Assembly: GCF_003991135.1 (NCBI RefSeq)
Contig: NZ_CP016379.1
Span: forward strand, 1-64,000
Origin: Anoxybacter fermentans
GTDB taxonomy: Bacteria; Bacillota; Halanaerobiia; DY22613
Direction of reading: 5' to 3'
Length of the DNA: 64,000 nucleotides
Under the pieces are notes generated by a model. It worked only from the letters and a program-made list of their open reading frames with translations. It had not been told where the DNA came from and did not search any database. Positions 10,826 to 50,941 of this stretch are shown piece after piece (the stretch's first letter is position 1; each line of letters starts with the position of its first letter). The translations under genes were made by a program, and so were the position numbers.

Positions 10826-10837
10826 GAGAGATGAAAG

Positions 10838-12554: not shown

Positions 12555-12606
12555 ATTAGTATTTTTAAAAATAAAATAAACCAGTATAGAAGGAGGCGTA
12601 AATTTT

Positions 12607-25307: not shown

Positions 25308-25395
25308 TAAAAGATAAATTTTTATTTTTTTAGAGAGGAGGTGAATTTGGAAGTTTAATTATATTAAGTAAAAAGGAGGAATGCTAATAATCTTA

Positions 25396-27728: not shown

Positions 27729-27762
27729 CAATATTATTTTTATAGTATTGGAGTTGAGACAT

Positions 27763-28833: not shown

Positions 28834-28924
28834 ACTCCAGTTTTTGGCTTATTATGTTGCCAGATTACGAGGCTGTAATGTGGATCAGTTGCGGAATCTG
28901 GCTAAATCAGTGACAGTGGAGTAA
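28834..28924 (+). repeat. glmS 3'-end repeat, copy 2
   Basis: A 91-bp near copy of the glmS 3' end including the stop. It is the most diverged copy (for example ATTACGAGG for ATTGCGGGG, and TTGCGGAA for CCACGGAA). It has no upstream glmS sequence, so it is a displaced fragment. It separates the GIY-YIG unit from the BREX unit. Confidence 0.88.
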
Positions 28925-28943: not shown

Positions 28944-28998
28944 AAAATCATGGGTGGAATGCAGGCGGTAGCCTGTATTCCACCCATGATTTTTTTAT
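28944..28998 (+). terminator. Strong terminator after glmS repeat copy 2
   Basis: ATCATGGGTGGAATGCAGG pairs with CCTGTATTCCACCCATGAT and is followed by seven T residues. It resembles a glmS-type terminator carried with the gene fragment and insulates the BREX operon from upstream transcription. Confidence 0.9.
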
Positions 28999-29283: not shown

Positions 29284-29880
29284 ATGACAAAATATAAGTC
29301 GACAATTAAATCAATGGCATTTTTGTACTTAGAATTAAAAAAGGCTTCAGGCCTTTATTTACAAGGTTTAAAAGTAGATGAAATAAAGAAAAAAGCAGTA
29401 GAAGAAAATATTTTTTTATTGAACACAGAGAGCAGAATTAAAGAAATTGCTTCAACAGTTATTAAAAGACTGCAAGTACTGGATGAATTTTTGCTCTGGA
29501 AGATTACTAATGGAAGTTTGGAGACAAGCAAACAAATAGCCCTATATGCCATAATGAAAACTGACAGATTATTTTTTGAATTTATGCAGGAAGTTTATCG
29601 AGAGAAGTATTTGCTGATGGACTATATTATTAACGATAAAGATTTTAGTGTTTTCTTTCAAAGAAAATCGGAACAGAGTGACCAGGTTGCATCATGGAAA
29701 GATTATACTTTTTATAAACTAAAGCAGGTATATAAAAGAATCCTTGTAGAAGCAGGCTTTGCCAAAAAGAATAAAAAGAATTTAGAAATTATAAAACCTA
29801 TCATGGAAGAAGAAGTAATAGAACACTTAAAAAATAAAGGAGATCAGATTTATTTACAAGCAATGTTGGGAGAGGTGTAA
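29284..29880 (+). CDS. brxA: BREX protein BrxA
   Basis: 198 residues, the first gene of a type 1 BREX phage-defence operon. BrxA (DUF1819 family) is a small helical DNA-binding protein of the system. Identification rests on the SRIKEIASTVIKRLQVLDE region, the length, and its fixed place before brxB. I use the ATG at 29284, 11 nt after GAGGTGAT; a GTG at 29269 lies inside that ribosome site. It abuts brxB. Confidence 0.85.
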   Translation: MTKYKSTIKSMAFLYLELKKASGLYLQGLKVDEIKKKAVEENIFLLNTESRIKEIASTVIKRLQVLDEFLLWKITNGSLETSKQIALYAIMKTDRLFFEFMQEVYREKYLLMDYIINDKDFSVFFQRKSEQSDQVASWKDYTFYKLKQVYKRILVEAGFAKKNKKNLEIIKPIMEEEVIEHLKNKGDQIYLQAMLGEV

Positions 29881-30462
29881 ATGATGAATATCTATGAAAG
29901 GCTTAATGCAATTCGTTCTAAAATTATGGAAAAGAGGTTTAGGGAGAATAAAGGCTTAGGAAATGAGATAGGATTTTATATTTTTGACTATGATCCAAAG
30001 GATGAGATGCTTGTAAGAGAACATATAGCATTTTTAAAGCAGAAAATAAACACTGATAATTCAGAAATTAGAATCAAGGAATTTGATTTATATGAAATTA
30101 TGTTAGAAATATTAGAAAACAAGGGATATTTAGAAAAAGTCTTTGAAATGGAAGAAAAAAAGGGAACCAATGCGATATTAAAACCAATCAAAAATACATT
30201 GAGGCTTACTCAAAAAAATGATCTGGTTGTTGAGTATATCAGACAGAGGGTCGAACAAAATGACATTGTGTTTTTAACGGGAGTAGGAAAAGTATGGCCT
30301 ATTATTCGTTCTCATACGATTTTAAATGCTTTGCATTCTGTGATTGATTATGTACCTGTGGTAATGTTTTATCCTGGCACTTATTCAGGTCAGGATTTGT
30401 GTCTGTTTGATGAAATTATGGATCAAAATTATTACAGAGCATTTAAACTCATTGAAAGATAA
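29881..30462 (+). CDS. brxB: BREX protein BrxB
   Basis: 193 residues, DUF1788-like. It begins directly after the brxA stop (TAAATG), so it is translationally coupled. The conserved features are the central IFDYDPKDE region and the C-terminal FYPGTYSGQDLCLFDEI segment ending in NYYRAFKL. Its molecular role in BREX is not well defined. Two adjacent ATG codons make the start uncertain by one residue. Confidence 0.86.
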   Translation: MMNIYERLNAIRSKIMEKRFRENKGLGNEIGFYIFDYDPKDEMLVREHIAFLKQKINTDNSEIRIKEFDLYEIMLEILENKGYLEKVFEMEEKKGTNAILKPIKNTLRLTQKNDLVVEYIRQRVEQNDIVFLTGVGKVWPIIRSHTILNALHSVIDYVPVVMFYPGTYSGQDLCLFDEIMDQNYYRAFKLIER

Positions 30463-30478
30463 AAGGAAGGTGAAAAAT

Positions 30479-33400
30479 GTGGTGAAACTTAGAGAATTGT
30501 TTAATAAAGACATTGAAAGGGATATTAAAGGAGTTATTAAAATTGGACAGGATGATGATGCCAATATCTATCAAGAGTTGGAAGAATATGTAGTAACAAG
30601 AGAATTGGGTAAACATTTCAGCACCTTTTTTGAAGCTTATAAAAAAAGTATTAACAATTATACTGATAAGATGGGAGTCTGGATTTCCGGTTTCTTCGGG
30701 AGTGGTAAATCCCACTTCTTAAAAATATTATCTTATTTGCTTGCCAACAAAGAAGTAAAGGGTAAAAAGGCTGTATCTTATTTTGATGATAAAATTAACG
30801 ACCCAATGGTGCTTGCTGATATGAAGATGGCCGGAGATGTTAGTGCAGACGTCATTCTATTTAATATTGATTCTAAATCTGATTCTGACTCTAAAGTTAA
30901 TAAAGAGTCTATTGTAAAAGTATTCAACAAAGTATTTGATGAAATGCAGGGATTTTCTGGTTCACTACCCTGGGTTGCCGATATGGAAAGGAAACTTGTA
31001 AAAGAGGGTTTATATGAAGATTTTAAAAGAAGATTTGAAGAGCTGGCTGGAAGCCCATGGGAGGATGCCAGGGAAGATTTTTATTTTGAAGAAGATAATA
31101 TTGTTAAAGCACTGGCTGATACCACGAAAATGAGTATTGATGCAGCTAGACAGTGGTATAACAAAGCGGAAGAAAACTATTTTTTAAGTGTTGAAAAATT
31201 TGCTAAAAAGGTAAAAGAATACATTGAATCAAAAGGTGGCGATCACCATGTTATTTTTCTGGTGGATGAAATGGGACAATACATTGGTGATGATGCCGGT
31301 TTAATGCTAAACCTTCAAACTGTTGTTGAGGATTTGGGAACTTACTGTGGAGGAAAGGCATGGGTTATCGTAACCTCCCAGCAGGATATTGACTCCATTA
31401 CAAGGGTGAAGGGAAATGATTTTTCGAAGATTCAGGGTAGATTCAATACAAGATTGAATCTTTCCAGTGCCAATGTGGATGAGGTAATTAAAAAGCGTAT
31501 TTTGCTTAAAAAAGATGTTGCCAGAGATACACTGAAACTTCTTTATGTGGAGAAAGAGGCAATTTTGAAAAATCTCATTACATTTTCAGCAGATACGGCT
31601 GAAATGAAGACTTATAAATCAGTAGATGATTTTATAGAAGTTTATCCTTTTATTCCATATCAATTTAATCTGTTGCAGTCTGTATTTACAGCAATAAGAA
31701 TACACGGTGCCAGTGGCAAGCATCTTTCAGAAGGGGAAAGATCCCTTTTAAGTGCCTTTCAGGAAGCTGCGATTCGTTATGCCGATCATGAGGTTGGAAC
31801 TTTAATACCTTTTTCAGCCTTTTATGAAACCATTGAGGCATTCTTAGATTCCAATATACGCACGGTTATTCTCCATGCCCAGGATAATGACAGACTTACA
31901 GATAGGGATATAGAGGTACTTAAAGTTTTATTCTTAATTAAATATGTCAAAGAAATGCCTGCTAATATAGAAAATATTGCTACTTTGATGGTGAGTCATA
32001 TTGATGATGATAAGATTGAACTTAAAAAGGAAATAGAAGAATCCCTTAAAAGACTTCTTAAAGAAACCCTTATTCAAAAGTATGGTGATGAATATATTTT
32101 TCTGACTCACGAAGAGCAGGGGGTCAATAGGGAGATTCAGAATATTCCGATAGATATAGGTGAAATTATTCTAAAGATCGGTGAAGAGATATTTAACGGA
32201 ATTTATGACGAAAAGAAGTTTAGATACAATACCAGATATCATTTTGATTTTAACAAAATAATAGACAACAGACTGTTGTCATCACAGAAAAGTGAGATTG
32301 GTGTAAAAATTATTACCCCTTACTTTGATACAGGGGAAGAATTGACAGATTATGAATTAAAAATGATGTCAGCAGGGGAAAACAACCTGATAATTAAACT
32401 CCCTTCTGATACTACTGTATTGGAAGAAATGGAGGATATCCTAAAGATCGAAACATACCTAAGGAAAAGCGGTGCTTCTTCTATAGAGACAATAGAAGAA
32501 ATAAAAAGCAGAAAATCAAGGGAAGTTGCTGAAAGAAAGGAAAGAGTCAAGACCCTGCTTGTAGAAGCATTAAAAGAGGCAGATTTTTATGTAAACATGC
32601 AAAAACTTGATATCAAATCAAAAAATCCAGTGGAAAGAATCAACAGTGGATTGAAAGTTCTTATTGATAATTTATACAATAAATTAAATTATATTACGCA
32701 TTTTATTGAAAGTACAAAAGATTTACAGGATCTTTTGATGGAAAATGATATGCAGTTGAAACTAACAGACGATGATGATGTTCCCAATAAATTTGCCTTA
32801 GAAGAAGTCAAACATTATATTGAAATAAATACACAAAGGAATATACTTATAACATTAAAGTCTATCATTACATTATACTCCAAAGCACCTTATGGCTGGA
32901 GAGAGTTAGATATCATTGGATTAATCATTAAATTGTTTAAATCTCAGGAAATTAAACTCCAACTTGGAGGGGATTATCTTAGTACATCAGATAAAAATAT
33001 TATCCAATATATGACTAAGCGGGATTATATTGAAAGGTTAATTATTAAAAAAAGAACGAAGACAGATAAAAAATACATTAACAATGCGAGAGACTTGGCA
33101 AGAGAAATATTTGGCTATATGACTGTACCGGATGATGAAGATGGTTTGATGAACAAATTTAAGGAATTATCAAAAGAAGAGTTGTCGGAGATTAATAGAC
33201 TGTTAGTTTACTATGAAAACTTTAATTATCCTGGGAAAGAAGTATTAGAAAATGGCAGAGAATTGTTTGAAGAAATTTTAAGAATTTATGATGCAGTGGA
33301 GTTTTACGAAAAACTGTATGAACTGAAAGACCAGATGTTGGATTATGAAGATGATGTTTTTGATGTAAAAAAATTCTTTGAAAATCAAAAAGAATATTTT

Positions 33401-34030
33401 GATAGAGCTTTAGAGCAATTAAATGTTTATGAGAGGAATAAATCATATATAGTAGATAGTGAAACAATTAAGATTGTACAGGAAATAGAAGAAATCGTAA
33501 AATCACAAAAACCCTATTCGCAAATATTAAAACTTCCTCATCTTATAGCTGAATTTGAAAACAGGTTTTCAGAATTGTTAAAAGAAGAATGTAGACCTAT
33601 CCGAAATGTTATTGAAAGTAATTATCAAAAGGTTAAGGATGAACTTAACTTATATGACTTTAAAGATGAATTATATCCAAAATTCGAAGCAGAATTTAAT
33701 AACCTGTTCAATCGGTTAAATTTTGCAAATAACTTTTATGAAGCCATTGCCATGAAAGATGAGTCAGACAGGCTGAAAATACGTTGTTTTGAAGAAATAG
33801 AGAAGAAAAAAAGGGAATTAAAAGAACAAGATACCGAACAGTCAACAACGGTTAGTGATGGAGATACACCGGAATATATGTCCAAAAAGATTGTTAATAT
33901 CAGCATAGCCAACATTCTTCACAGTACCTGGACGATAGAGACCGAAGATGATATAGAAGAACTTCTGCAGCATATAAGACAACAGTTGAAAAAAGAACTG
34001 AAAGAAAATATTGTACTGAAACTGATTTAG
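30479..34030 (+). CDS. brxC: BREX ATPase BrxC (PglY-like)
   Basis: About 1183 residues. A large AAA-like ATPase with Walker A GSGKS at residues 74-78 and Walker B in [16 protein letters not shown] near 260. The C-terminal half is charged and helical, with probable coiled coils. BrxC is a core BREX component and acts with BrxB and PglZ. Two GTG codons at 30479 and 30482 follow AAAGGAAGG; I take 30479. An earlier in-frame ATG (30407) would overlap brxB by 56 nt and lacks a ribosome site. Confidence 0.9.
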
Positions 34031-34044
34031 AGGAGAGGAGATTC

Positions 34045-37000
34045 ATGAATAAGGCGGCTATTAAAAACTTTGCCATAAGGGCAAGAAGAAAACTGATTGA
34101 AGAAGTTACCCAAAAAGCCTATGAAATCGGGATAACAAAAGACGATATTTATGATATAGAAACTTTTGAAGATGGGTTTAGAGTCAAAGGAAGAGAAAAC
34201 AGCAGAATATTTAAGAAGTATGAAATCAAACAGAGAGAAAAGTTAATCCAAAATATTAAAGAAAAAGGCTTTGACCAGGTAATGGAAGAAGTTGCCTACA
34301 CATGGTTTAATCGTTTTATTGCTCTTCGATTCATGGAAGTGAATAACTATCTACCCACCGGTGTTAGAGTACTTTCTTCAATAGAAAAAGGAAAAACTGA
34401 GCCGGATATTATCAAAGAAGCATCAAATGTTGATCTGGAGGTTGACAGAGAAATTATCTATAATCTGCAGATCAATAATAAAACAGAAGAACTGTACAAG
34501 TACCTTCTTATCAAACAATGCAATCAGTTGGGGAAAATAATGCCGTCGGTATTTGAGGAAATATCCGATTATACAGAACTCCTTCTCCCTGATAACTTGC
34601 TTTCTAAAGATTCTGTCATCAGAGATTTAGTGGAGAGCATTGAGGAATATGATTGGAAAATAGAGTTAGATGAAGAGGAACAGAAATTAGAAGAAGAAAA
34701 AGGTGAACACGGTATAGAAATTATAGGTTGGCTGTATCAGTACTATATTTCTGAAAAGAAAGATGAAGTATTCGCAGGGCTCAGGAAAAACAAAAAGATT
34801 ACAAAGGAAAATATTCCGGCTGCTACCCAACTTTTTACTCCAAAATGGATAGTCAAATATATGGTAGAAAACTCTTTAGGAAGACTATGGTTAGAATCTC
34901 ATCCTAATGAAAAATTAAAAGAAAAATGGAAGTATTATCTGGAAGAAGCAGAGCAGGACCCTGAAGTTAAAAAGCAGCTGGAAGAACTGAAAAATCCCAA
35001 CTTGAGTCCCGAAGACATAAAGGTATTGGACCCTGCCATGGGAAGTGGCCATATTCTTGTTTATGCTTTTGATGTATTGTATGACATTTATTTAAGTGCG
35101 GGATATTCAGAAAGGGAAATACCAACACTTATTTTAGAAAAAAACCTATATGGCCTTGATATCGATGATAGGGCAGGCCAATTGGCGGCTTTTGCCCTTT
35201 TAATGAAAGCAAGAAGCAAAAATAGAAGGATATTCAGGTACAGGCCGAAGTTGAATTTATGTTCAATTCAGGAAAGTAACGACATTCCCAGGGAAGCAGT
35301 AGATTATTTGGTAAAAGAAGATGAAAATTTGAGAAAAGATGTGGAATATTTAATCAATATATTTCATGATGCAAAGGAATACGGCTCTATACTAGATGTG
35401 AAGGAAATTGATTTTGATTCGATTGAGAAGAGATTAGAGGAAATTAGAGATGTAGAAACATTAGATTTATTTGAACTTCGGTATAAAGAAATAATATTAG
35501 AAAAAATTCCTTTTCTTATTAAACAAGGAAAAATAATGAGTGAAAAATATTGTGTGGTTTGTACTAATCCACCTTATATGGGAAATAGAGGTATGAATAA
35601 TAATTTATCTGATTATTTAAAGAAGTGCTTTTTTGATTCTAAACATGATTTATATTCGGTTTTTATTGAAAAATGTATTAAATATTCATGTGAAAATATG
35701 TATATTAGTATGATAACTCAACATTCGTGGATGTTTTTATCCAAATTTGAGAATATTAGAAAAAAAATTATTAATAATAATATAATATTGTCTATGGTAC
35801 ACTTAGGTACAAAAGCGTTTGAAGAAATTGGAGGAGAAGTAGTACAGTCAACAGTATTTGTTATTAAAAAATTTAATATTCAATATTATAAGACTACATA
35901 TTTAAAACTTACAAACTATAAAAATTCAGCAGAAAAAGAAAAAGAATTTTTTAATATTAATAATAGGTATGTTACTCGAAATATTACATTTAATAAAATA
36001 CCTGGTTCACCAATAGCATATTGGATAAATGAAAATTTCAGGAATCTTTTTGTAACAGAAAAATTACTAGGAGAAATTGAAATGCCTGTAGAGGGTATAA
36101 AAACAGGTAACAATAATTTGTTTTTAAGACTATGGTATGAAGTAAATTATAATAATATATATCATAAAATTTTTAATAAAAATAAAAGCTTATATAAGTG
36201 GTTTCCTATTGCAAAAGGTGGAGATTACAGAAAATGGTATGGCAATAATGAATATGTAGTTAATTGGTACAATAATGGAGAAGAATTAATAAATTATCCT
36301 AATTCAACAGTATCACATAAAGATTTATTTTTTACTGATGCTATAACTTGGAGTTATATTTGTTCATATAAGATATCAATACGATATTTAGGAAAGGAAT
36401 ATTTGTATAATAACAAAGGTCCATGTTGTTATATTCGAAATCAAAAGAATATATTTTATTTAATGGCATTATTAAATTCAGTAGTAGGTGATACTATTCT
36501 AAACATACTTGCACCTACTTTAGATTATAAACCCGGCAATTTAAAAAATGTTCCAGTAAAAATAATTAAAGATAATAAAATTTTAAATCAAATCGATTTA
36601 ATAACAAAAAACTGTTGGGAAATTTCTAAAAATGATTGGGACTCATTTGAAACTTCATGGGATTTCAAAAAACATCCTTTATTAACTTATAAAGGTAATG
36701 CACCTACAGTAGAAGAAGCTTTCAATAATTGGTCTGACTTTACGGAAAAACAGTTTAATCAACTTAAAGCAAACGAAGAAGAATTGAATCGCATTTTTAT
36801 TGAAATCTACGGTTTACAAGATGAACTTACCCCTGAAGTTGATGATAAAGATATTACCATTCGTAAGGCAGCTAGGGAAAGAGATATCAAATCCTTCATA
36901 TCCTATGCAGTAGGCTGTATGTTTGGTCGTTATTCTTTGGATGAAGAAGGACTTATCTATGCAGGTGGAGATTTTAAAGATTACTTTAAATTTGAAAATG

Positions 37001-37683
37001 GAGAATGGCAGATAAAAACAAAAGAAGGTTGGAAGAAGTCTTCTATTGATATAGCAGGGGATAATGTTATTCCTATTGTTGATGATGATTATTTTGAAGA
37101 TGATATCGTCAACCGATTTGTTGAGTTTGTTAAAGTTGTCTTTGGTGAGGAGACATTAGAGGAAAATTTGGACTATATAGCAGAAACCTTAGGAAAGAAA
37201 AGTAATGAAACTTCAAGACAGGCTATCAGAAGATACTTCTTAAAAGGTTTTTATAAAGACCATGTAAAAACATATAAAAAACGTCCGATTTACTGGCTTT
37301 TTGACAGTGGCAAAGAAAACGGATTTAAAGCGTTAATCTACATGCACCGCTATGATCCTTCTACTATTGCAAGAGTGCGGACCGATTATTTGCATAGATT
37401 GCAGAAAAAATACGAGGCAGAAATCAAGCATTTAGATATACTTATTGATTCAGATATATCAAAGAAAGAAGAAATAGTGGCTAGAAAAAGAAAAGAAAAG
37501 ATTATGAAACAAATTATGGAATGTAGAGTTTACGACCAGATCATAGCCCATATTGCCAATCAAAAAATTGAGATTGACCTGGATGATGGAGTTAAAGTCA
37601 ACTATGCCAAATTCCAGGGAGTAGAAATTCCCCAGGGAGAAGGCAAGAAACCTTTAAAAGCAAACCTATTGGCGGAGATATAA
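34045..37683 (+). CDS. pglX: BREX adenine-specific DNA methyltransferase PglX
   Basis: 1212 residues. Methylates adenine in host DNA at the BREX site and marks self. The SAM-binding motif DPAMGSGH starts at residue 329 and the catalytic motif NPPY is at 508-511. The region after NPPY to about residue 890, where target recognition lies, is much richer in A+T than the flanks, as if exchanged by recombination. The reading frame is intact. A gap of 70 nt with a T9 run precedes the type III cassette. Confidence 0.93.
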
Positions 37684-37753
37684 TTGCAGCCGAACGTTAT
37701 GCTTTTAAATTTTTTTTTACCAAATAAAAAATATTAGGCTGGAGGTGAGGAGT

Positions 37754-38842
37754 GTGAAAGACTATACGGTGAAAATTAAACCATTGACTCCTTTGTGGAC
37801 AGGAGATGCAAATAGAAGGGGCAATGCAGTGAGGGAGACAGGAATAATTGGCAGTTTACGGTGGTGGTACGAAGCTTTGGTAAAGGGATTAGGAGGAACT
37901 TCGTGTGATCCCACAGACATAAAATGTAATGGCGAGAATCACTGTGATGTCTGTGAACTTTTTGGTTGCACCGGCTGGGCAAGAAAGTTTAGGTTAGAGG
38001 TTAGTCTGGAGGGAGAGAATCCAAGTTGGGAATTTTTGGATGGAAAGATAGGTACCAGGCGAAAGCATAATAAAGTGAAAAAATTTCTTGTAAGAAATTT
38101 TTCCGGTTTTGTGACAAAAGGATTAATAGTTATTACTTTTATTCCTTTAAGAAAAATCGAATTAAGTGAATGGGAACTGTTAAACAGGACATTAAATATA
38201 ATTGAAGATTATGGGGCTCTGGGAGCACGGACTTCCCAGGGAAATGGAGTAATAAAGATTGTTGAGAATAATTTACCTGTAAAACAAAATAAAATTGATT
38301 TGGTTACAAAAGGGAAAAGTGTTGATCAACCTATTCTTAAAGATTTCTTTTTCTATAAATTTCGAATTAAATTTGCTGATACAATTGAAAATTTGATAAA
38401 GCTAAAGGTATTCTGGACACATGCACCTCTACATAATTCCTTCAAAGAAAATTGGGAGCAGTGGGAGAGAGCGTGGCACACATATGAATTTTTACCTATA
38501 GCTTTTCATGTAAGGGATGCTATAAGACCTCTCATTAAAGATAAGGCAGAGCGCCACAAGGTATTCGGAGAGTGTGGTAAAGGTTCTCGGGTTTTTGTTT
38601 CTCATGGTTATAAGATTGATGAAAAAAAGGTAGAAGTTAGAATATTCGGATATGGTGTTAATGAGGAAATAAAGAAAAAAATAAAGAATAATTTTAATAG
38701 ACAATTAAAAGAAAAACTGTTTCAAGAAAATGAGTGCATCCAAAAACTAAAAGATTGTTCATTACAAAAAGAAAAAACAGGAAAGGAAATAATTCAAGAA
38801 TTGAAAAATGAATTGGAGGTGGTGCTGGATGATGGTACATGA
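37754..38842 (+). CDS. Type III-B CRISPR RAMP protein Cmr1-like
   Basis: 362 residues. The N-terminal LTPLWTGDANRR and GIIGSLRWWYEALVKGLGG segments match Cmr1 (RAMP superfamily), followed by a Cys-rich insert and CELFGCTGWARKF. A glycine-rich loop, LGARTSQGNG, lies near residue 160. Cmr1 caps the target-binding end of Cmr effector complexes. I start it at the GTG at 37754, 8 nt after GGAGG. It opens the cassette inserted between pglX and pglZ and overlaps the next gene by 14 nt. Confidence 0.87.
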   Translation: MKDYTVKIKPLTPLWTGDANRRGNAVRETGIIGSLRWWYEALVKGLGGTSCDPTDIKCNGENHCDVCELFGCTGWARKFRLEVSLEGENPSWEFLDGKIGTRRKHNKVKKFLVRNFSGFVTKGLIVITFIPLRKIELSEWELLNRTLNIIEDYGALGARTSQGNGVIKIVENNLPVKQNKIDLVTKGKSVDQPILKDFFFYKFRIKFADTIENLIKLKVFWTHAPLHNSFKENWEQWERAWHTYEFLPIAFHVRDAIRPLIKDKAERHKVFGECGKGSRVFVSHGYKIDEKKVEVRIFGYGVNEEIKKKIKNNFNRQLKEKLFQENECIQKLKDCSLQKEKTGKEIIQELKNELEVVLDDGT

Positions 38843-39680: not shown

Positions 39681-39681
39681 A

Positions 39682-42591
39682 ATGGCGGTAGGGGAAATGC
39701 TAAAAAAAATTAAAGAGGAACAGCCTCAAATCTTAACTGGGGAAATAGGTGCCCTACTGCATGATATTGGCAAGTGCCATCCTGATTTTATATGGAAAAA
39801 CTCTCGAGAGGGTGGAAAGGATTTTCAACACGGAAAAATTGATAAATTTCTCAAATTTGAACTGGTGGATTTGCTACGACATAGGAAATTCAGCTTTGGA
39901 AGTAAGGAGAAACTTTCTGACATCTATTCTGTCATAACCGAACATCATAATGATAGTTATAGTAATGACTTAATTAATTTAGTGCGAAATTGCGACCAAC
40001 TTGATTCGGCTGACGACAAAGGTGTAGTGCGGAAGGAACAATCTATAAATAGTATAATCATCAGTACTCCATTCGGTTATCCAAAAGAAATAGTAGACTT
40101 AAACGGCCTTAAAAGTCGACTGAGTGAGCTAGAAGAAAGATTAATAGGGATACTTAAGGATTATATTGCTAGCAGAATATCTTTAAGAGAATTTCGAAAA
40201 TTAATAATGGATAATCTCAAGGTAACCTTTTCTCATGCCCTGGGAGAAACCAGAATTCCAGCAAATGATGTGACATTATGGGACCATTCCTATTCAACTG
40301 CTTCACTTTTTAAATCCGTATTGTGTTACATAGTCTTAAGTGAAGACTCTGATTTAAAGGGGTTAAAGTGGAGAATTTTTGGTGTATGCTGGGATGGATT
40401 AGGGTTTATTGAAAAAGGGAGAAAAATTGCCGACATCCTGACCCGCAGACAGATTATTAAGGATATCAAGGAAAAATTAAAAGAAATGTTTGAAGTTGAG
40501 TACCCTGTTGGAAATGCAGTATACGAAGATATAAATGGGATATATTTTACCTTTCCTGCCTTGGAAGAGAGCAAGGCAGTACGGCTTGCACGTGAATGTG
40601 CAAGTGTTGGATTGAAGGAAATATTTCAAATAAGCGATCAGGAAATATGGCCCTTTTTCACTTTAAGCAGAGCTTCTCGAAGCCTTACTATTCTTGGTAG
40701 AGAATTGAAGTTTGCTTCGGAAAAGAGAAATATACCAAAAATGAGCCCTACTCTTTTTGTAAAAGGAGAAGAAAGTAGAGAAAGTAAACAAGAGTTAATA
40801 GATTATTCTCTAGAAATATTGCTTAAACAAGAAGAAATATGTAAAGAGAATGAAAACTGTAAAAAATATTGTGATATTTGTCCTATTTGCAAGATAAGAA
40901 GTAAAGATCACAAGAAAGAAATGTGTATTAAATGTAATGAAAGACGAAAAGGAAGACTGAACAGCTGGCTGGAAAATAGGATAGACAGAACCATCTGGAC
41001 AGATGAAGTTGCCGACATAAACAATCGTGTGGCTCTTCTTACTTTAAGTTTCAACCTAGATAAATGGCTGGATGGAAAGCTGGTAGAAACTATTTATTCC
41101 CAAACCTTTGAAGATTGGAGAAATGGTAAAAAGTATCAAAAGAAAAAAATAATAAATATTTTAAATAGTTATAACATTGAACAACCAGGGGATTCTTACA
41201 TAAATGCTTTAAAAATAGCAGAGTGGATAAGCAAAAATCCTTTTAGAACAGAGGTAAAACCTTTGTTAGAATGCTTTTTGGAAGATGGAAGTTTAAATAA
41301 TATACATACAATTGATGTTATTCATAATCCACAAACGATATTAACTTATTTCTTTACCCAAAACCCTTCACCCGCTCGGCTGTCGAGGATTTGGCAGGAA
41401 ACCGGGGAATTTTGGGCTGAGGTTCTAAAGAGATTGACATCAGGGACAAGGTGGAAGAGACTGCGGTTTGAAATAGATTTTTCACAGTTAAAATTGAAAA
41501 AAGATATTGAAAAAAATACCCCCTACATTCTGAAATTTAATGATTTAGAGCCGGATACTCTGCTTGTTTTGCACACTGAAAAAGGCAAGTTTTTCACTAT
41601 AGAATCGCTTGAGAAGTTCAGCACAGGAGAAGTAAAAGGCCTGGCAGCGGTGCAAAAGATGTTAAAAGAAGAAGGTTTTTGCTGGCTTGCCCGGGAAGAT
41701 AACCCTGCCGAAAATTTGCTTGTTGAAAATAAAGCAAGTAAACAGTCTGTAGAGGAGAATAATTTCGTTGCAGAAGACTACTATCCTTTTATTGAAATAG
41801 TAAGAACTCCTTTATTGTTTCAGATCATAGTTCCAGCCCTTGATGCTGTAAAAATTTTGGAAATGATAACAACCATGTTTAATGAGAGGTTTGGAAAGGT
41901 TATCGGAAAACTACCACTAAATGCAGGGCTGCTGGTGGCTAACAGGAAATTCCCCTTATATCTGCTGCTTGAAGCAGGAAAAAGAGTCTTACGGAGCAAG
42001 GAATTCCAGGAGCCAGTATTGCTGGACCCGTGGTGGGATATCAGCAATGTGAAAAAAGATAAGTTTTACAGTTTTTACCCCCTGAAAAAACTTAATGGAG
42101 ATGAGCATTACACCCTGGATGATATTGTTCCTCTTTCTAAGGGAAAAGCATATGCATTATATCCCGGTTACTTTGATTTTGAACTGTTGGGTGGCAATGA
42201 AGATCGGTATAAGCTTGCATATAAGGATAAAAGGCGTGTTCAGGAGGATTATAAACTGTTTTCAAGGAGGCCATATTACCTTTATCAATTCAAACAAATG
42301 GTGGATTTATGGGAGATATTAAGAAATAACCTTTCGACTACTCAGATTAACTTTATTGAACGGGCAATTACAGAAAAGATAAAAGAGTGGAAAGGAGTTG
42401 AAGATTTCTGTAAAAAAGATGTTTTCAGGGGATATGTAACAGCAACTTTACAGGATGCTTTCGGAGACAGGTGGTTTAAATTACGTGAGGAGACGCGTTG
42501 TTTTATATTGAATTCTGCTATGAATAATCTTTTGCTTGATACTATTATGCTTTTCAGGCACGTAATCAAAGACAGGGAGGTAGATGTGTAA
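39682..42591 (+). CDS. csx11: Csx11/Cas10-like large subunit with HD domain
   Basis: 969 residues. The N-terminal HD nuclease domain has LLHDIGKCH (His27-Asp28), TEHH and CDQLDSADD. A Cys cluster at about 393-430 (CDICPICK ... CIKCNER) is the zinc finger typical of Cas10. The C-terminal part (RTPLLFQIIVPALDAV..., YPGYFDFELLGG) matches my memory of Csx11, a divergent Cas10. I see no GGDD in the palm-like region; GGNED near the end is not in that context. DNA cutting by HD is therefore plausible, cyclic-oligoadenylate synthesis is not. The start has AAGGAGGTG; the stop overlaps cmr4 by 1 nt. Confidence 0.82.
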   Translation: MAVGEMLKKIKEEQPQILTGEIGALLHDIGKCHPDFIWKNSREGGKDFQHGKIDKFLKFELVDLLRHRKFSFGSKEKLSDIYSVITEHHNDSYSNDLINLVRNCDQLDSADDKGVVRKEQSINSIIISTPFGYPKEIVDLNGLKSRLSELEERLIGILKDYIASRISLREFRKLIMDNLKVTFSHALGETRIPANDVTLWDHSYSTASLFKSVLCYIVLSEDSDLKGLKWRIFGVCWDGLGFIEKGRKIADILTRRQIIKDIKEKLKEMFEVEYPVGNAVYEDINGIYFTFPALEESKAVRLARECASVGLKEIFQISDQEIWPFFTLSRASRSLTILGRELKFASEKRNIPKMSPTLFVKGEESRESKQELIDYSLEILLKQEEICKENENCKKYCDICPICKIRSKDHKKEMCIKCNERRKGRLNSWLENRIDRTIWTDEVADINNRVALLTLSFNLDKWLDGKLVETIYSQTFEDWRNGKKYQKKKIINILNSYNIEQPGDSYINALKIAEWISKNPFRTEVKPLLECFLEDGSLNNIHTIDVIHNPQTILTYFFTQNPSPARLSRIWQETGEFWAEVLKRLTSGTRWKRLRFEIDFSQLKLKKDIEKNTPYILKFNDLEPDTLLVLHTEKGKFFTIESLEKFSTGEVKGLAAVQKMLKEEGFCWLAREDNPAENLLVENKASKQSVEENNFVAEDYYPFIEIVRTPLLFQIIVPALDAVKILEMITTMFNERFGKVIGKLPLNAGLLVANRKFPLYLLLEAGKRVLRSKEFQEPVLLDPWWDISNVKKDKFYSFYPLKKLNGDEHYTLDDIVPLSKGKAYALYPGYFDFELLGGNEDRYKLAYKDKRRVQEDYKLFSRRPYYLYQFKQMVDLWEILRNNLSTTQINFIERAITEKIKEWKGVEDFCKKDVFRGYVTATLQDAFGDRWFKLREETRCFILNSAMNNLLLDTIMLFRHVIKDREVDV

Positions 42592-43520
42592 TGGAAATAA
42601 GAAAATATCTTGGAAAAGCTCTTGACCCCATTCATATAGGGGCGGGAGGATATAGACTGGGCCGGGTGGACAATACTATCGTCAGGGAGCCGGCGACAGA
42701 TGTACCTAAGATACCCGGCACTTCCCTGGCAGGAGCGATAAGAGAATACGCAACTTTTTATCTGCAGGAAAAAGATGAAAAATGCAAAAACCAAAACGAC
42801 GAGGGGGAAAAAAGAAGGTGTGCTGAAGAAAAGGCAAAAGAATATTTTGGCGACGAAAAAAGGCAAGGAATGCTGCGGTTTTATGACGCCCAGATTCTTT
42901 TTTTTCCTGTATCGTCTATCAATGGTACTGTCTGGATAACTACTAAAGATTTGATTAAATATTGGTTGGGTGATATAAAAAATTCTGATGGAGAAGAAAT
43001 AAAAATTCCGAGAGACATTGAAGATGAAGCCTATATCATCAGATGGGTTAATGATAAAAAACCGGACAAACTAAACCTTGGCTGGCTTTTATTAGTAGTC
43101 GGGAGCCAGTTTAACGATGATAATTCAGAGATTATTACGCTTCCTTTAGAGCTAAAAGATTTTATCAAAAAAATCGTATTAGTTTCTGATAAGCTATTTT
43201 CCCACATAGTAAATGACAATCTTGAGGTAAGGACTTCTGTTAGAATTGATTCCACAACAGGAACTGCAGCAGAAGGGGCCCTCTTTACTTACGAGGCTAT
43301 ACCGAGGGGGACAGTGTTTGGTTTTGAAATAATTGAAGATAAACGTCGAGGTGAGAAGAATGAAGTTGATGGAATGATAAAGGCAGCTTTTAAATATTTA
43401 AAGCTCCTTGGTGTCGGAGGAATGGGAACCCGGGGGTTTGGGAGGCTTGAAATATTGTGGCCACCTGTCGACAGCGAGAAAAAGATTGAGAAAAGGGAAG
43501 GTGAAGGCGATAATGACTAA
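42591..43520 (+). CDS. cmr4: Type III-B CRISPR RAMP protein Cmr4
   Basis: 309 residues. The backbone RAMP of Cmr complexes; several copies line the guide RNA and cut target RNA every six nucleotides. PIHIGAGG, IPGTSLAGAIRE and the C-terminal GVGGMGTRGFGRLE are standard. Asp27 in GRVDNTIVRE sits where the catalytic Asp of Cmr4 lies, so RNA cleavage is probably retained. It starts inside the stop of the large-subunit gene (TAATG) and overlaps cmr5 by 8 nt. Confidence 0.9.
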   Translation: MEIRKYLGKALDPIHIGAGGYRLGRVDNTIVREPATDVPKIPGTSLAGAIREYATFYLQEKDEKCKNQNDEGEKRRCAEEKAKEYFGDEKRQGMLRFYDAQILFFPVSSINGTVWITTKDLIKYWLGDIKNSDGEEIKIPRDIEDEAYIIRWVNDKKPDKLNLGWLLLVVGSQFNDDNSEIITLPLELKDFIKKIVLVSDKLFSHIVNDNLEVRTSVRIDSTTGTAAEGALFTYEAIPRGTVFGFEIIEDKRRGEKNEVDGMIKAAFKYLKLLGVGGMGTRGFGRLEILWPPVDSEKKIEKREGEGDND

Positions 43521-43911
43521 TCTTGATTATTATTGCATGAAGTATGGTCAGAAAATAGGAAGTATGGGAGATGAAAAGAAAGTCAAGGAGATTCTTAATA
43601 ATATCCGAAAAGCTTTAGGCGTTCTTAAAGAAGATGGAATATATGCAATGTTTTTGTGGCTTGAAGATAAAGATAAAGGGAAGATTAGAAAGCAAGGGCT
43701 TTTACCTTTATTGAATGACGGTAATATAAAAACAATGTTTATTGACAAAAAAGATAACTTTTCTGAGACTTTTGAAGGTTTATGTTCAACAATTAAAGAT
43801 ATAGCAAAGGATATAGATAAAGTTTTATTACTAAAAAAAATTTTGGAGCGCACTCTGACTTATGCTTTGTATCACGCTAAAGTCAGGGCGGGTGAAAAAA
43901 ATGTGGACTAA
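43513..43911 (+). CDS. cmr5: Small subunit Cmr5-like (Cas11 group)
   Basis: 132 residues, almost entirely helical, with a Lys-rich surface. Length, helix content and place between Cmr4 and the last RAMP identify it as the small subunit that forms the second filament of a type III complex (IRKALGVLKEDGIYAMFLWLE and KVRAGEK at the end). Overlaps both neighbours (8 nt and 11 nt). The start at 43513 follows GAAGGTGA. Confidence 0.8.
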   Translation: MTNLDYYCMKYGQKIGSMGDEKKVKEILNNIRKALGVLKEDGIYAMFLWLEDKDKGKIRKQGLLPLLNDGNIKTMFIDKKDNFSETFEGLCSTIKDIAKDIDKVLLLKKILERTLTYALYHAKVRAGEKNVD

Positions 43912-44887
43912 ACTTGAATTGATATATGAGTTGGATAGTCCTTTGCATATAGGTTACCTGCCGTTTACAGGTTCTGTCGTATCTCCTACTAGGTACTATG
44001 TTCCCGGCAAAAATTTATGGGGTGCTGTAACGAGGCTGGCTACGGAATATCTGTTTGCAGAACCTACAGGAGAAGATTACCGGCGGGTTGGAGAGGAAGT
44101 TAAAAAACATTTCCGGTTTTCTTATTTCTATATTCTTGATGGGGAAACGATATATTACCCCTGTTACAGTGAAGAGGGATTGATTTATGGAAATGAAGAA
44201 AAAATAACTAAAGCCGAATTTGAATACAGATTTATTGGGAGCAGGGTCTCAACGGCCATTGACAGGGAGTTGGGTTCAGCAAAGCATGAAAGCCTGCATG
44301 AGATCGAATTTATAAATCACAAATACATGGATAAAAAAGGTAATATCAAGAACACCAAAATTATCGGGGCTGTTTGGGTAAATGGGTCCGCTAGGCTGCC
44401 TTTACAGGATAGAAATGTAGAGTTTAAAATTAAAGATGATGGGGTATATGTTGACCATTTTAATCTATTGCAAGAGCTAATCCTTGGGGGAGAGCAGAAT
44501 TACGGTTTTGGTAGAGTAAGACTTTACTGTATAAACAAGGGTAAGAATATGTTTCCCGTAGAAGATAATTTAAATAAAGATAAAATAATAGTAACCGTAA
44601 AAAAGGGTAACCCTGTTCTTTCTCATGTTAAAATTATTAACAACTACAAAAACAACAAATTAATCCCCTTTCGGGGAGATATAGAACTGTTAAGCGGCAG
44701 GGAATACTCTAATAAAGAAAAAGAACGATTTAAAGAAGCTGGTAAACGTATTGTTCCGCCAGAGTATTATTTTTCTCCTGGAACAGTTTTTTTGATGGAT
44801 GATCAAGATGATAAGGATGGAGAAGAGTTTATTCTGAGCTGGAGTGGAATTATGGATAGAAAAGTTTCAGAGAATAATTCAGATTGA
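43901..44887 (+). CDS. RAMP-superfamily protein (Cas5-group or Cmr6/Cmr3 position)
   Basis: 328 residues. RAMP signs: YELDSPLHIGYLPFTGS near the start, YYVPGKNLWGAVTRLATEYL as the P-G-x-x-L/W-G segment, and ILGGEQNYGFGRVRL as the glycine-rich loop. It completes the six-gene effector set. With Cmr1, Cmr4 and Cmr5 assigned, this and the gene at 38829 must fill the Cmr3 and Cmr6 roles, but I cannot say which is which. Starts 11 nt inside cmr5; pglZ follows after 24 nt. Confidence 0.72.
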   Translation: MWTKLELIYELDSPLHIGYLPFTGSVVSPTRYYVPGKNLWGAVTRLATEYLFAEPTGEDYRRVGEEVKKHFRFSYFYILDGETIYYPCYSEEGLIYGNEEKITKAEFEYRFIGSRVSTAIDRELGSAKHESLHEIEFINHKYMDKKGNIKNTKIIGAVWVNGSARLPLQDRNVEFKIKDDGVYVDHFNLLQELILGGEQNYGFGRVRLYCINKGKNMFPVEDNLNKDKIIVTVKKGNPVLSHVKIINNYKNNKLIPFRGDIELLSGREYSNKEKERFKEAGKRIVPPEYYFSPGTVFLMDDQDDKDGEEFILSWSGIMDRKVSENNSD

Positions 44888-44911
44888 TTTGAATACAGGT
44901 GGGTGACTAAA

Positions 44912-47467
44912 ATGAACTTAAATGAGATAAAGAAAAAATTAGAAGAACATTTCAGTAAAGAACCTACTGGGGGGAAAAAAAGACATATTGTTTTCTGGTA
45001 TGACGAAGAAAGAGAGTTTGTTGAAGATATTGACGAATTGCAGTTGGAAAATGCCAGGATTTTAAAACTTAAAGATAACAACGCTTTTTTCATCAAGTAC
45101 CAATTGGAAAAAGTAGATACAGAATCTAATTATCTCATATACTCTCCTAACCGAAAGCCAGAGTCGAGGGAGAACTGGCTTCTGGATATATTAAATTACA
45201 GCATGGAATTTTCAGCAGATAAAGCAGATGTGATTATGACAGATTTTGGAATAAAAGAATCGTCTCTTAAGAGGGTATTTAAAAAGTACCTTAAGTTTTT
45301 TGGAAATAAAGAAAGATATAAAAAATTTGCTTCTTACAATATTGAAAAATTTACTGAAGAAAAGGTGGATATCGCTGTCCTTTCTGTTTTATGCAAACTT
45401 CCTGTGGCTGATTTTGAACTTGTTGTAAAAAAGGTTCTTATGGGGGAAGTTGAAGAGGAAAATAAGTTAATAGAAACAATCAGAAATTTTGGGGATTTAG
45501 ATGCCTTTTGGAAGCTTGTAGAAAGAAGATACGGTTATGCTTTTGAAGAAAAATCTTTAGAAAAACTTATTATCATGTTTTTGGTTACCCATTTAAGTTA
45601 CAATTTAGAGGAAGATTTGCCAGAAACATGGCAGAAGTTTGTATCTATAAAAAAATCTAATTGTATTGTATTTGTCAGCAATTTTATGAACCATGCAGTT
45701 GACAGCAAAATTTATGATCTTTTTGCAGATAGAGTGGAAAAAATATTAAATGTAAAAGATTATGTAAATAAGTGGGATATAGAGAAGTACATAAACTGTG
45801 ACACTTTTAGAGTTTTTGATGAAATAATTATATCAAAGTTAATTAATAATTTGCTTGATGATATAGGTGAGTTTGAAAGATATCGAAAAATTATAAATAA
45901 TAGAAAGACGAGTCATTGGTTTAATCAAAAAAAATATGAATATGAAGCTCTGTATTATGCTTTAGAAGTTCTTGAAATGGAAAGAAGAATGGGAAAGGTT
46001 ATCAGAGGGCAAATGGCTTTTGAATTGATAGAAAACTATACAAAAGAATACTATTTAATGGATCAATTTTACAGGAAATTCTATTTGTCATATGATAAAA
46101 TAAAGAATAAAGAGCCTTTTGAAAAATTGGCAGAAAAAATAGAAAACACTTATACTCACTGGTACTTAAATGAATTATCGATAAAATGGTCAAGGGCAGT
46201 TGAGAATGAACTGTATGAAAACTATGTGTTGATTGGAATTCCCCAGCAGAAGGATTTTTATGAGGATTATATTTCTTCATATGTAAAAAATGGTGAAAGG
46301 GTATTTGTCATTATTTCTGATGCATTGAGATACGAGGCTGGTAAAGAGCTGATTAACCTTTTAAATAAAGAACTAAGGGGTGCTGCTGAAATACACTTTA
46401 TGCAGGGAGTCGTTCCTTCCACTACTAAATTTGGTATGGCAAGTTTGTTGCCCCGTAGAAGTATCGATATAAATGAAAAGGCAGAAGTTTTAGTGGATGG
46501 TATAAATACACAGGGAACAAACAACCGGGCAAGGATATTATTGAATTATTGTGAGGATGCTTTAGCTATACAATATCATGATTTGATGGATATGAAGAGA
46601 ACTGAATATAAAGAAACCTTCGACGGTAAAAAGCTCATTTATATCTACCATAATGCAATCGATGCAGTAGGAGATAAAAGTTTAACGGAAAGAGAAGTAT
46701 TTGAAGCTGTTGAAAAGGCTTTGAAAGACTTGATTAATTTAGTTAAAAAGCTTGTCAATAATGTTAGTGCTACCAATATTTTTATCACTGCAGACCATGG
46801 TTTTATTTACAGAAGATTTCCGCTAAATGAAAGTGATAAAGTTGGTAAAAGCAATATCAAAGCAATAGATGAAGGAAGAAGATTTGTGCTGACTGATTCC
46901 AGTGACCATTTGGAAGATACTTTATCAATTTCTATGAGATATATTTTGGGAGAACAGACGAATTTGAGAGTTATCGTGCCAAAAGGAGTCATTCGATATA
47001 AAATTCAAGGAGCGGGGGCCAACTATGTACACGGTGGAGTTTCCCTGCAGGAAATTATAATACCCGTGATTAAGTTTAAAAACATCAGAAAAAATGAATA
47101 TAGGGCTTCTAAAGTTGAAGTGAAGTTAACAAATATTTCAAGAAAAATTACTAATAGGATTACTTATTTGGAATTCTTCCAGACTGAGAAAGTAGAAGAT
47201 AAGAAAGTACCTTTGAGACTGAAACTTTATTTTGTTGATGAAGATGGCAATAAAATATCTAATGAGAATATCATAATTGCAGACAGTCGATCTTCATGTC
47301 CTGAAGAACGTACTTTTAGAGAAAAGTTTACCCTTAAAGATATGCCTTATGATAAAACCAAAAAATATTATTTAATTTTGGAAGACGAGGATGAACCTGT
47401 AGAAAAAATATATGAAAAGATTCCCTTTACAATAGATTTAATTATCAGTGACGATTTTGGTTTTTAA
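44912..47467 (+). CDS. pglZ: BREX alkaline-phosphatase-like protein PglZ
   Basis: 851 residues. A core BREX protein with an alkaline-phosphatase superfamily fold. Metal-site motifs are SDALRYEAG (Asp470) and TADHGF (Asp628-His629). A C-terminal beta-rich extension (about 720-851) follows. Same family and length as PglZ of type 1 BREX. In the standard order it directly follows pglX; here the type III cassette intervenes. ATG at 44912 preferred; GTG at 44903 lies in the ribosome site. Confidence 0.92.
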   Translation: MNLNEIKKKLEEHFSKEPTGGKKRHIVFWYDEEREFVEDIDELQLENARILKLKDNNAFFIKYQLEKVDTESNYLIYSPNRKPESRENWLLDILNYSMEFSADKADVIMTDFGIKESSLKRVFKKYLKFFGNKERYKKFASYNIEKFTEEKVDIAVLSVLCKLPVADFELVVKKVLMGEVEEENKLIETIRNFGDLDAFWKLVERRYGYAFEEKSLEKLIIMFLVTHLSYNLEEDLPETWQKFVSIKKSNCIVFVSNFMNHAVDSKIYDLFADRVEKILNVKDYVNKWDIEKYINCDTFRVFDEIIISKLINNLLDDIGEFERYRKIINNRKTSHWFNQKKYEYEALYYALEVLEMERRMGKVIRGQMAFELIENYTKEYYLMDQFYRKFYLSYDKIKNKEPFEKLAEKIENTYTHWYLNELSIKWSRAVENELYENYVLIGIPQQKDFYEDYISSYVKNGERVFVIISDALRYEAGKELINLLNKELRGAAEIHFMQGVVPSTTKFGMASLLPRRSIDINEKAEVLVDGINTQGTNNRARILLNYCEDALAIQYHDLMDMKRTEYKETFDGKKLIYIYHNAIDAVGDKSLTEREVFEAVEKALKDLINLVKKLVNNVSATNIFITADHGFIYRRFPLNESDKVGKSNIKAIDEGRRFVLTDSSDHLEDTLSISMRYILGEQTNLRVIVPKGVIRYKIQGAGANYVHGGVSLQEIIIPVIKFKNIRKNEYRASKVEVKLTNISRKITNRITYLEFFQTEKVEDKKVPLRLKLYFVDEDGNKISNENIIIADSRSSCPEERTFREKFTLKDMPYDKTKKYYLILEDEDEPVEKIYEKIPFTIDLIISDDFGF

Positions 47468-47486
47468 TAAATATTAGGCAGGTGAA

Positions 47487-49541
47487 ATGAACATGGATAA
47501 GTCAGATAAAACTTCAAACCTAAATGAAAAACTGAATAAATACTTTCCGGGAAGAGTTGTGCGAAAAGATTTGACAAAAAAAATAAAAGAAGGAGCAAAT
47601 GTTCCGGTTTATGTGTTGGAATATTTGCTCGGTATGTATTGTGCCACGGATGATGAAGATAGCATCAATGATGGTGTGGAGAGGGTAAAAAATATACTTG
47701 CTCAAAATTTTGTTCGTCCAGATGAAGCAGAAAAGGTTAAATCCAAAATTCGTGAAATGGGGTTGTATACTGTAATTGATAAAGTAACAGTGAAACTTAA
47801 TGAAAAGAAGGATATTTATGAGGCTGAGTTTTCGAACTTAGGCCTGAAAGGTGTAGAGATAGCCCCCCATTATGTCAGGGAATATGAGAAACTACTGACT
47901 GGTGGAATATGGTGTATTTTAAAAATTAGTTATTATTATGATGAAGAATTAAGAGATGTAAATCCTTTTAAAATAGATAACCTTAAACCCATTCAAATGC
48001 CTAATTTAGATATAGAAGAGATATTTAATAGGCGTAGATACTTTACTAAAGATGAATGGATAGATGTACTATTAAGATCCATTGGTATGGAGCCTACCCA
48101 ATTAGAAGAAAAAGTAAAGTGGCATTTGCTGGCTCGTATGATTCCACTGGTAGAGAACAACTATAATCTTTGTGAATTAGGGCCACGGGGTACAGGGAAA
48201 TCCCATATATATAAAGAAATATCTCCTTATTCAATCTTGATATCAGGCGGGCAAACTACAGTGGCAAATCTATTTTATAACATGTCCACAAGAAAGATAG
48301 GACTGGTTGGATTATGGGATGTGGTTGCTTTTGATGAGGTAGCAGGCATAACTTTTAAGGATAAAGATGGAATTCAAATAATGAAAGATTACATGGCTTC
48401 TGGTTCTTTTGCACGGGGAAAAGAAGAAAAAAATGCTTCAGCTTCTATGGTATTTGTAGGGAATATCAATCAAAGTGTTAACGTTTTGCTGAAAACTTCT
48501 CACTTATTTGATCCCTTTCCTGAAGCAATGGCCTATGATACTGCCTTTTTAGACAGAATGCACTATTACATTCCCGGATGGGAGATTCCTAAATACAGGC
48601 CAGAATATTTTACCAATGAATACGGATTTATTACAGATTATATAGCAGAGTTTTTCAGAGAAATGAGGAAAAGATCATTTTCTGATGCTCTGGATAAATA
48701 TTTTATTTTAGGAAATAACCTCAACCAAAGAGATGTAATAGCGGTAAGAAAGACTGTTTCAGGTTTGGTAAAACTTATCTATCCAAACGGGGAATTTGAA
48801 AAGAAAGATATAGAGGAAATATTAAGGTATGCTTTGGTCGGAAGAAGGAGAGTAAAAGAACAGTTAAAAAAAATTGGTGGTATGGAATTTTATGATGTTC
48901 ATTTTTCTTATATAGATAAAGAAACTTTTCAGGAGGAATTTGTATCAGTACCAGAACAGGGTGGAAGCAAACTGATTCCAGAAGGAATGGGAAAACCGGG
49001 CCATGTTTACACGGTTGCTCGTGGCGATTCTGGTATGATCGGTGTATTCAAAATTGAAACAGAAGTTGTGCCAGGTTCAGGAAAGTTCGAAAGAACTGGA
49101 CTTGGTTCAAGTAGAGATGCAAAGGAAAGTATCAATATTGCTTTTAATTATTTTAAAGCAAACAAAAAAAATATTAGCGGAAGTATATCATTAAATAACA
49201 ATGATTTTCTGATGCATATCCAAGATCTTCAGGGGATAGGTATGACGTCAGAATTGGCTTTAGCTGCTTTTATTGCATTGTGCTCGGGCGCATTAAAAAA
49301 ACCTGTTCAGAGTCAACTGGTTGTACTGGGTTCTATGAGTATTGGTGGGACAATCAATAAAGTTGAAGAATTGGCAAATGTATTGCAAGTTTGCTTTGAT
49401 GCCGGTGCGAAAAAGGTGCTGCTTCCCATGGCTTCTGCTACTGATATTGGTTCAGTTCCGCCGGAATTGTTTGCAAAATTCCAGATATCTTTCTATCAAA
49501 GCCCTGAAGATGCTGTGTTTAAGGCATTAGGGGTTGAGTAG
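47487..49541 (+). CDS. brxL: BREX Lon-like ATPase BrxL
   Basis: 684 residues. AAA+ ATPase with Walker A GPRGTGKS (232-239) and a Lon-protease-like C-terminal domain (LGSMSIGGTINKVEELANVLQ ... KVLLPMASATDIGSVP). Presence of BrxL defines type 1 BREX; it is required for phage defence but not for methylation. The ATG at 47487 is close to its ribosome site and the ATG at 47493 is an equally good choice. Last gene of the operon. Confidence 0.92.
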   Translation: MNMDKSDKTSNLNEKLNKYFPGRVVRKDLTKKIKEGANVPVYVLEYLLGMYCATDDEDSINDGVERVKNILAQNFVRPDEAEKVKSKIREMGLYTVIDKVTVKLNEKKDIYEAEFSNLGLKGVEIAPHYVREYEKLLTGGIWCILKISYYYDEELRDVNPFKIDNLKPIQMPNLDIEEIFNRRRYFTKDEWIDVLLRSIGMEPTQLEEKVKWHLLARMIPLVENNYNLCELGPRGTGKSHIYKEISPYSILISGGQTTVANLFYNMSTRKIGLVGLWDVVAFDEVAGITFKDKDGIQIMKDYMASGSFARGKEEKNASASMVFVGNINQSVNVLLKTSHLFDPFPEAMAYDTAFLDRMHYYIPGWEIPKYRPEYFTNEYGFITDYIAEFFREMRKRSFSDALDKYFILGNNLNQRDVIAVRKTVSGLVKLIYPNGEFEKKDIEEILRYALVGRRRVKEQLKKIGGMEFYDVHFSYIDKETFQEEFVSVPEQGGSKLIPEGMGKPGHVYTVARGDSGMIGVFKIETEVVPGSGKFERTGLGSSRDAKESINIAFNYFKANKKNISGSISLNNNDFLMHIQDLQGIGMTSELALAAFIALCSGALKKPVQSQLVVLGSMSIGGTINKVEELANVLQVCFDAGAKKVLLPMASATDIGSVPPELFAKFQISFYQSPEDAVFKALGVE

Positions 49542-50818: not shown

Positions 50819-50941
<123 letters not shown>

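Follow-up and report, generated by a model that had tools for sequence, protein, structure and literature searches.

Genes between pglX and pglZ are a known trait of bacteriophage exclusion (BREX) operons. According to PMC11341690, pglX and pglZ occur together in about 9000 of 12,000 genomes, with genes between them in about 7000; of some 2000 genomes with known defence genes in this interval, 15.98% have BrxU and 2.21% PARIS (phage anti-restriction-induced system). In two cases given there, the BREX-PARIS island of Salmonella and the BREX-BrxU system of E. fergusonii pEFER, this same interval of the BREX operon houses a further defence module. PARIS is an abortive-infection pair and BrxU a type IV restriction enzyme. 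Here we describe a locus of Anoxybacter fermentans that is likewise built, whereas its cargo is an RNA-guided complex: a complete effector operon of type III-C CRISPR (clustered regularly interspaced short palindromic repeats) separates pglX from pglZ in an intact type 1 BREX operon. The stretch analysed, called the window below, comprises positions 1 to 64,000 of contig NZ_CP016379.1 (forward strand), and is part of a single-contig genome of 3,557,532 bases.

Stand-alone III-C operons are the other described relatives. Those of Archaeoglobales (L072), Marinimicrobia (L063) and plasmid pANACY.02 match the window in their six genes and in gene order. They differ from it in that no BREX was found beside them. 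An array is present in the stretch examined at 16 of 60 other loci encoding Csx11, the III-C large subunit, so that not every relative has one nearby; the window cassette has no nearby array either.

The pglX-pglZ slot is thus already known, and the III-C passenger is new there and seen once; with it, a complete CRISPR effector, RNA-guided and of several subunits, joins the range of cargo known from the slot. The words 'Cmr' and 'Cas10' are absent from the main text of PMC12839542, a survey of BREX accessory genes. In the literature searched, we found no publication containing both 'pglZ' and 'csx11' and, judging by titles and the start of abstracts, none describing III-C within BREX; a supplementary figure of PMC11341690 may already tally CRISPR cargo.

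The BREX operon and its III-C cassette

The BREX type 1 operon is intact and spans 29284-49541, with brxA, brxB, brxC, pglX, pglZ and brxL in canonical order, all six reading frames open and all on the + strand. A preliminary description made from the letters of the window had reported these genes as intact and in this order, and searches with Pfam (BrxA, BrxB, BrxC, BrxL) and NCBIfam (PglX, PglZ) bear it out. The interval between pglX and pglZ holds six genes of a complete type III-C effector operon (37754-44887), on the same strand as BREX. Gene starts were picked by us on ribosome-binding-site context where this is indicated.

29284-29880, + strand: brxA (PF08849, 209.7 bits; 29284 is an ATG start)
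29881-30462, + strand: brxB (PF08747)
30407-34030, + strand: brxC (PF25796, PF25791, PF25792; start uncertain, 30407-30482)
34045-37683, + strand: pglX, BREX-1 adenine methyltransferase (NCBIfam NF033452, 1496 bits, cut-off 500)
37754-38842, + strand: cmr1 (TIGR01894, 93.2 bits, cut-off 28.65; start by ribosome-binding-site context)
38829-39680, + strand: cmr6 (PADLOC Cmr6; start by ribosome-binding-site context)
39682-42591, + strand: csx11/cas10c, large subunit of type III-C, HD domain present, GGDD absent (TIGR02682, 666.6 bits, cut-off 248.95; PADLOC Cas10c; motifs; fold)
42591-43520, + strand: cmr4 (TIGR02580, 130.8 bits, cut-off 87; VDN motif kept)
43513-43911, + strand: cmr5 (PADLOC Cmr5; start by ribosome-binding-site context)
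43901-44887, + strand: cmr3 (PADLOC Cmr3)
44912-47467, + strand: pglZ type A (TIGR02687, 731.1 bits, cut-off 270.35; ATG at 44912 by ribosome-binding-site context)
47487-49541, + strand: brxL (PF13337, PF20442)

The cassette had been listed earlier as Cmr1, two further RAMPs (repeat-associated mysterious proteins), a Csx11/Cas10-like protein, Cmr4 and Cmr5. This list holds, and PADLOC names the two RAMPs as Cmr6 and Cmr3, so that the effector module is complete; NCBIfam gave no match for the Cmr5 and Cmr3 proteins. On its gene content, the effector is classed as subtype III-C. Subtype III-B was ruled out, the large subunit being Csx11 without GGDD and not a Cmr2-type Cas10 with an active cyclase. 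The order cmr1-cmr6-csx11-cmr4-cmr5-cmr3, on one strand, was found by tblastn in all 44 complete cassettes among the 60 other Csx11 loci, and the annotated cassette of the Anabaena plasmid pANACY.02 follows the same plan.

The genes are closely packed. Gaps of 70 nt and 24 nt separate pglX from cmr1 and cmr3 from pglZ, respectively; overlaps measure 14 nt for cmr1/cmr6, 1 nt for csx11/cmr4, 8 nt for cmr4/cmr5 and 11 nt for cmr5/cmr3, and a single base lies between the cmr6 stop (39680) and the csx11 ATG (39682). These spacings agree with those given earlier once starts with ribosome-binding-site context are used. The G+C content of the cassette is 36.2%, against 31.4 and 33.2% in the BREX parts. 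Mis-assembly was ruled out: the genome being a single contig, the junctions between BREX and cassette are not contig joins, and the boundaries fall within stretches homologous to other genomes.

As far as retained motifs can tell, the cassette looks functional. In Csx11 of the window the HD motif is intact (LLHDIGK, then HH); two relatives in the same comparison do not have this motif. The cyclase motif (GGDD, GGDE or GGDN) is absent from the window protein and from the 19 others aligned with it (20/20, alignment A3, from which the Marinimicrobia locus L063 was left out). In L063 the csx11 match (10001-12847) has a stop codon on straight translation. The aspartate of the VDN/VDM motif of Cmr4, which has a catalytic role, is conserved in all 13 rows compared. 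The predicted structure of Csx11 has a mean predicted local distance difference test (pLDDT) score of 84.1, and its best PDB matches are Cas10 proteins of Csm and Cmr complexes (best E 4.9e-10, approximately 10% identity). When a solved Csx11 was sought by sequence, none was found at E 0.01 with a 4-row profile, and a 20-row profile gave weak partial matches only. According to PMC11229360, III-C systems lack the cyclase sites, have the HD domain in half of the cases, and may act without cyclic-oligoadenylate signalling.

Exchange of cargo between pglX and pglZ

The nearest BREX-1 cores are found in two genomes of the same phylum, G362 (locus L143) and G274 (L160), with core proteins 71-95% identical to those of the window. 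They have the same slot boundaries, but their cargo is not III-C: it consists of a gene for an 881-aa PHP/SMC-like ATPase and a gene for a 387-aa Schlafen AlbA_2 protein. Flanking DNA is 82-86% identical between these loci and the window, falling to 69-72% where pglX is variable, in its middle part (blastn). The exchanged segment is bounded as follows.

37684, unstranded: left boundary of exchanged cargo; L143/L160 homology ends at 37680-37684, at the pglX stop codon (blastn)
44848, unstranded: right boundary of exchanged cargo; L143/L160 homology resumes (blastn)

Downstream, homology to L143/L160 ends at 49543. Because it breaks at the pglX stop and resumes in cmr3, and because the relatives carry different cargo, III-C looks like an exchangeable module, judged from these alignments, in a slot already known. 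It lies between pglX and pglZ, on their strand, and different cargo takes its place between identical boundaries in the relatives, as expected of slot cargo. Moreover, the best relatives of the cassette, 51-70% identical per gene (12 loci compared), come from Archaeoglobales, Methanoxibalbensis, Marinimicrobia and Thermincola records; since the nearest relatives of cassette and BREX core differ, the two have separate histories. A slot taking exchangeable cargo makes independent co-residence of the two systems likelier than an evolved joint machine. The boundaries, at the pglX stop codon and at the cmr3 tail before pglZ, mark where modules are exchanged. Closely related BREX cores, holding either III-C or the Schlafen/ATPase cargo, offer a natural comparison for asking if the cargo rides along or works with BREX.

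The right boundary falls inside a gene. The last 12 codons of cmr3 (44849-44884) and its stop are DNA that L143 and L160, which have no cmr genes, possess before pglZ. This tail may be leader DNA that the cassette captured as it came in; alternatively, it is a true cmr3 end, and G362 and G274 retain a remnant of it. The second option belongs to a different reading of the locus, where III-C, made together with BREX from a single island, is functionally tied to it as an RNA-sensing back-up with an HD nuclease, directed at phages whose DNA blocks or escapes BREX, and was once wider in the BREX lineage. Both closest relatives, L143 and L160, do have an in-frame stretch resembling MDRKVSEKDSD before pglZ; it would be a leftover cmr3 tail, present because III-C was replaced there by the Schlafen/ATPase cargo. 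L144 and L146, BREX relatives without cargo, have neither this stretch nor the corresponding DNA segment. We regard such a tie as unlikely.

The preliminary description had proposed to look for pglX and pglZ separated by a cmr block in other genomes. This arrangement was found in this window only. No BREX homologue was detected at 60 other Csx11 loci (tblastn, E 1e-4, in the stretch examined). Sequence of 3.5 kb or more flanks csx11 on both sides in 32 of them and on one side or both in 52; the remaining 8 give little information. These 60 loci comprise 22 from 21 other genomes of the phylum (398 searched), 35 from genome contigs, 4 more and the genome's own second copy, minus two duplicates; a weak match in G408 (E 3.7e-4, under the cut-off, with stops) is not among them. 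In the other direction, no cmr gene was found in 26 related pglX-pglZ slots, Cmr1 and Cmr4 being the cmr genes listed in one of the slot comparisons. PglX is present in 33 of the 398 phylum genomes at E 1e-100, the window genome included, and 28 of the 32 others were compared (G069, G089, G207 and G325 lie outside the sample); 26 slots were left after exclusion of L161, with no PglZ match, and L186, whose contig ends in pglX. Some of these BREX relatives have a broken pglX. The sampling, 1052 genome slots and one scan of genome contigs, is a limited one. A recurrent composite of BREX and III-C is therefore unsupported so far by these counts; of the earlier interpretation, the complete type III effector embedded in an intact BREX-1 operon stands.

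Among the 26 slots, 17 have nothing of at least 80 aa and 9 have an open reading frame of at least that length. Besides the Schlafen/ATPase cargo, we observed AAA_35 ATPases in L147 (11905-13155) and L151 (11713-13290), a pair resembling a nucleotidyltransferase/HepT toxin-antitoxin in L155 (6647-7316), and a 535-aa gene of no identified family in L185 (4147-5754).

Csx11 and PglX were found in 22 and 33 of the 398 genomes, respectively, and both in 4, for a chance expectation of 1.8; in the three genomes other than that of the window, the two are at separate places. No Csx11 relative was detected in the viral contigs and phages searched. In plasmids, three distant matches (H1 to H3) were obtained among 72,556 records; for PglX, 310 plasmid records gave a match. 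Within 8 kb of the matches, no gene named BREX is present in H1 or H3; nearly all genes of H2 are annotated 'hypothetical protein', hence it gives little information on BREX neighbours. H3 has transposase genes inside its cassette. In cyanobacterial plasmids (L187, 371-5289, and L228), the III-C cassette adjoins a divergent operon, annotated in Anabaena with ThiF, Mov34/MPN/PAD-1 and prokaryotic E2 ligase family genes.

These results bear on the idea of a true joint system, in which BREX and III-C would have a trigger, a regulator or a complex in common, either half licensing the other or serving as its back-up. The tight spacing of 70 and 24 nt on one strand and the fact that cmr3 ends in the same stretch of DNA that forms the pglZ leader would fit it, as would published slot cargo: PMC12839542 and PMC11341690 present PARIS as a presumed response to phage proteins blocking BREX. 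However, the absence of BREX from the 60 Csx11 loci and of cmr genes from the 26 slots, and the unrelated cargo of the nearest BREX, speak against it. So does the Salmonella island, where, according to PMC11341690, deletion of the embedded PARIS did not lower BREX defence (in plating, defence rose about tenfold) and left methylation near wild type, an outcome that fits independent layers. A joint system thus appears quite improbable.

Transcription, guide supply and a probable second layer of defence

One promoter for both systems had been proposed in the preliminary description. The following feature lies upstream of the BREX operon.

28947-28990, + strand: strong terminator-like hairpin, with a 20-pair stem followed by a T run

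This hairpin separates the BREX/III-C block from glmS, and no terminator-like site is present on the + strand in the pglX-cmr1 or cmr3-pglZ junctions. Expression from one promoter is plausible on these grounds, and co-transcription is what we infer; a precedent exists in the Salmonella BREX-PARIS island, which a promoter upstream of brxA drives (PMC11341690). Folding of the RNA across the pglX-cmr1 gap gave nothing notable (z 0.13).

We consider it probable that both systems are co-transcribed from upstream of brxA yet act separately, III-C constituting a second layer of defence. Among the possibilities raised earlier (layered defence, shared regulator, physical cooperation), layered defence is the best reading. 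Transcription from upstream of brxA would produce BREX and III-C together. PglX would methylate host sites, and BREX would block unmethylated phage DNA. The complex of Cmr1-6 and Csx11 would be loaded with CRISPR RNAs supplied in trans, from arrays at 715-741 kb and with Cas6 at 856 kb. Once loaded, it would bind phage transcripts, which Cmr4 would cut, and the HD nuclease of Csx11 would act on nearby DNA, with no part played by a cyclic-oligonucleotide signal. The III-C layer would then remain effective where a phage escapes or inhibits BREX. III-C would be one of several modules swapping in and out of the pglX-pglZ slot.

Guides in trans are possible, since Cas6 and arrays exist elsewhere in the genome: one Cas6, at 856 kb, and short CRISPR arrays clustered at approximately 715-741 kb. 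The array repeat family GTTTGTAGCCTACCTATGAGGAATTGAAAC of this cluster comes close to the array repeats that accompany III-C operons in L044 and L175; array repeats in L051, L053 and L065 are similar to it. A second repeat family of the cluster resembles the three-repeat array beside a type III-A system at 637-645 kb. The cluster (L107-L109) extends over about 25 kb, with at least 3 interleaved repeat families and recurring leader-like and end-like sequences.

Several observations weigh against this second-layer proposal. A search with exact 20-mers (at least 3 repeats) revealed no CRISPR array in the window, in the region 64-184 kb or in the final 20 kb of the contig, and Cas1 was not found in the genome (PF01867; the same search was positive in 9 of 14 control genomes); with no array nearby and no Cas1 found, the memory may be frozen. 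Promoter-like matches are no commoner than in shuffled sequence, so the cassette may have its own promoter. Finally, the genome has four type III effector loci, the window cassette included. The others are a distant second III-C operon (132.7-141.1 kb, L037), the III-A system at 637-645 kb, which comes with Csx1 (L163), and a III-F effector (2.614-2.618 Mb, L164); any of them could be the real user of the arrays. Which effector uses which array is likewise something that we infer.

Taken further, these points would make the cassette a passive passenger, which recombination brought into the slot and which does little there, cognate guides or adaptation being lacking. The failure to find Cas1 or a nearby array goes in this direction, as do the three additional type III effector loci, to which the same guides could be of use. 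On the other hand, all six reading frames are open, the gene overlaps and the HD and Cmr4 motifs have been kept, and Cas6 is present together with arrays whose repeat fits. We therefore hold an idle passenger to be very unlikely, and retain the second layer of defence as the preferred account.

Setting of the block at glmS

The block lies downstream of glmS, whose ribozyme is at 25386-25553, and the 3' end of this gene is found three times in the window.

27348-27446, + strand: glmS 3' end, native copy, in the gene at 25620-27446 (Pfam SIS/GATase; repeat family D1)
28826-28924, + strand: second glmS 3'-end copy, left flank of the BREX/III-C block (82% over 99 nt; 76/87 nt)
49756-50808, + strand: PD-(D/E)XK nuclease-like gene inside the island (PF14281; outside L143/L160 homology)
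50843-50941, + strand: third glmS 3'-end copy, right flank of the island (94% over 99 nt; 81/87 nt)

A repeated gene end flanking a block is the picture of site-specific island insertion. Copies two and three enclose the BREX/III-C block and the PD-(D/E)XK gene, and in 10 other genomes of the class, where approximately 18 kb following glmS was examined, no glmS 3'-end copy was found. From these repeats the block itself looks like an insertion, as in a genomic island, and the whole has the look of two insertions in tandem at glmS. Scanning of the island genes recognised no integrase. Copies one and two enclose a DUF7662 gene (27748-28533). To the right of the island, an ISL3-family transposase gene (53496-54698) has an ilvD-like gene on one side and TRAP transporter genes on the other.

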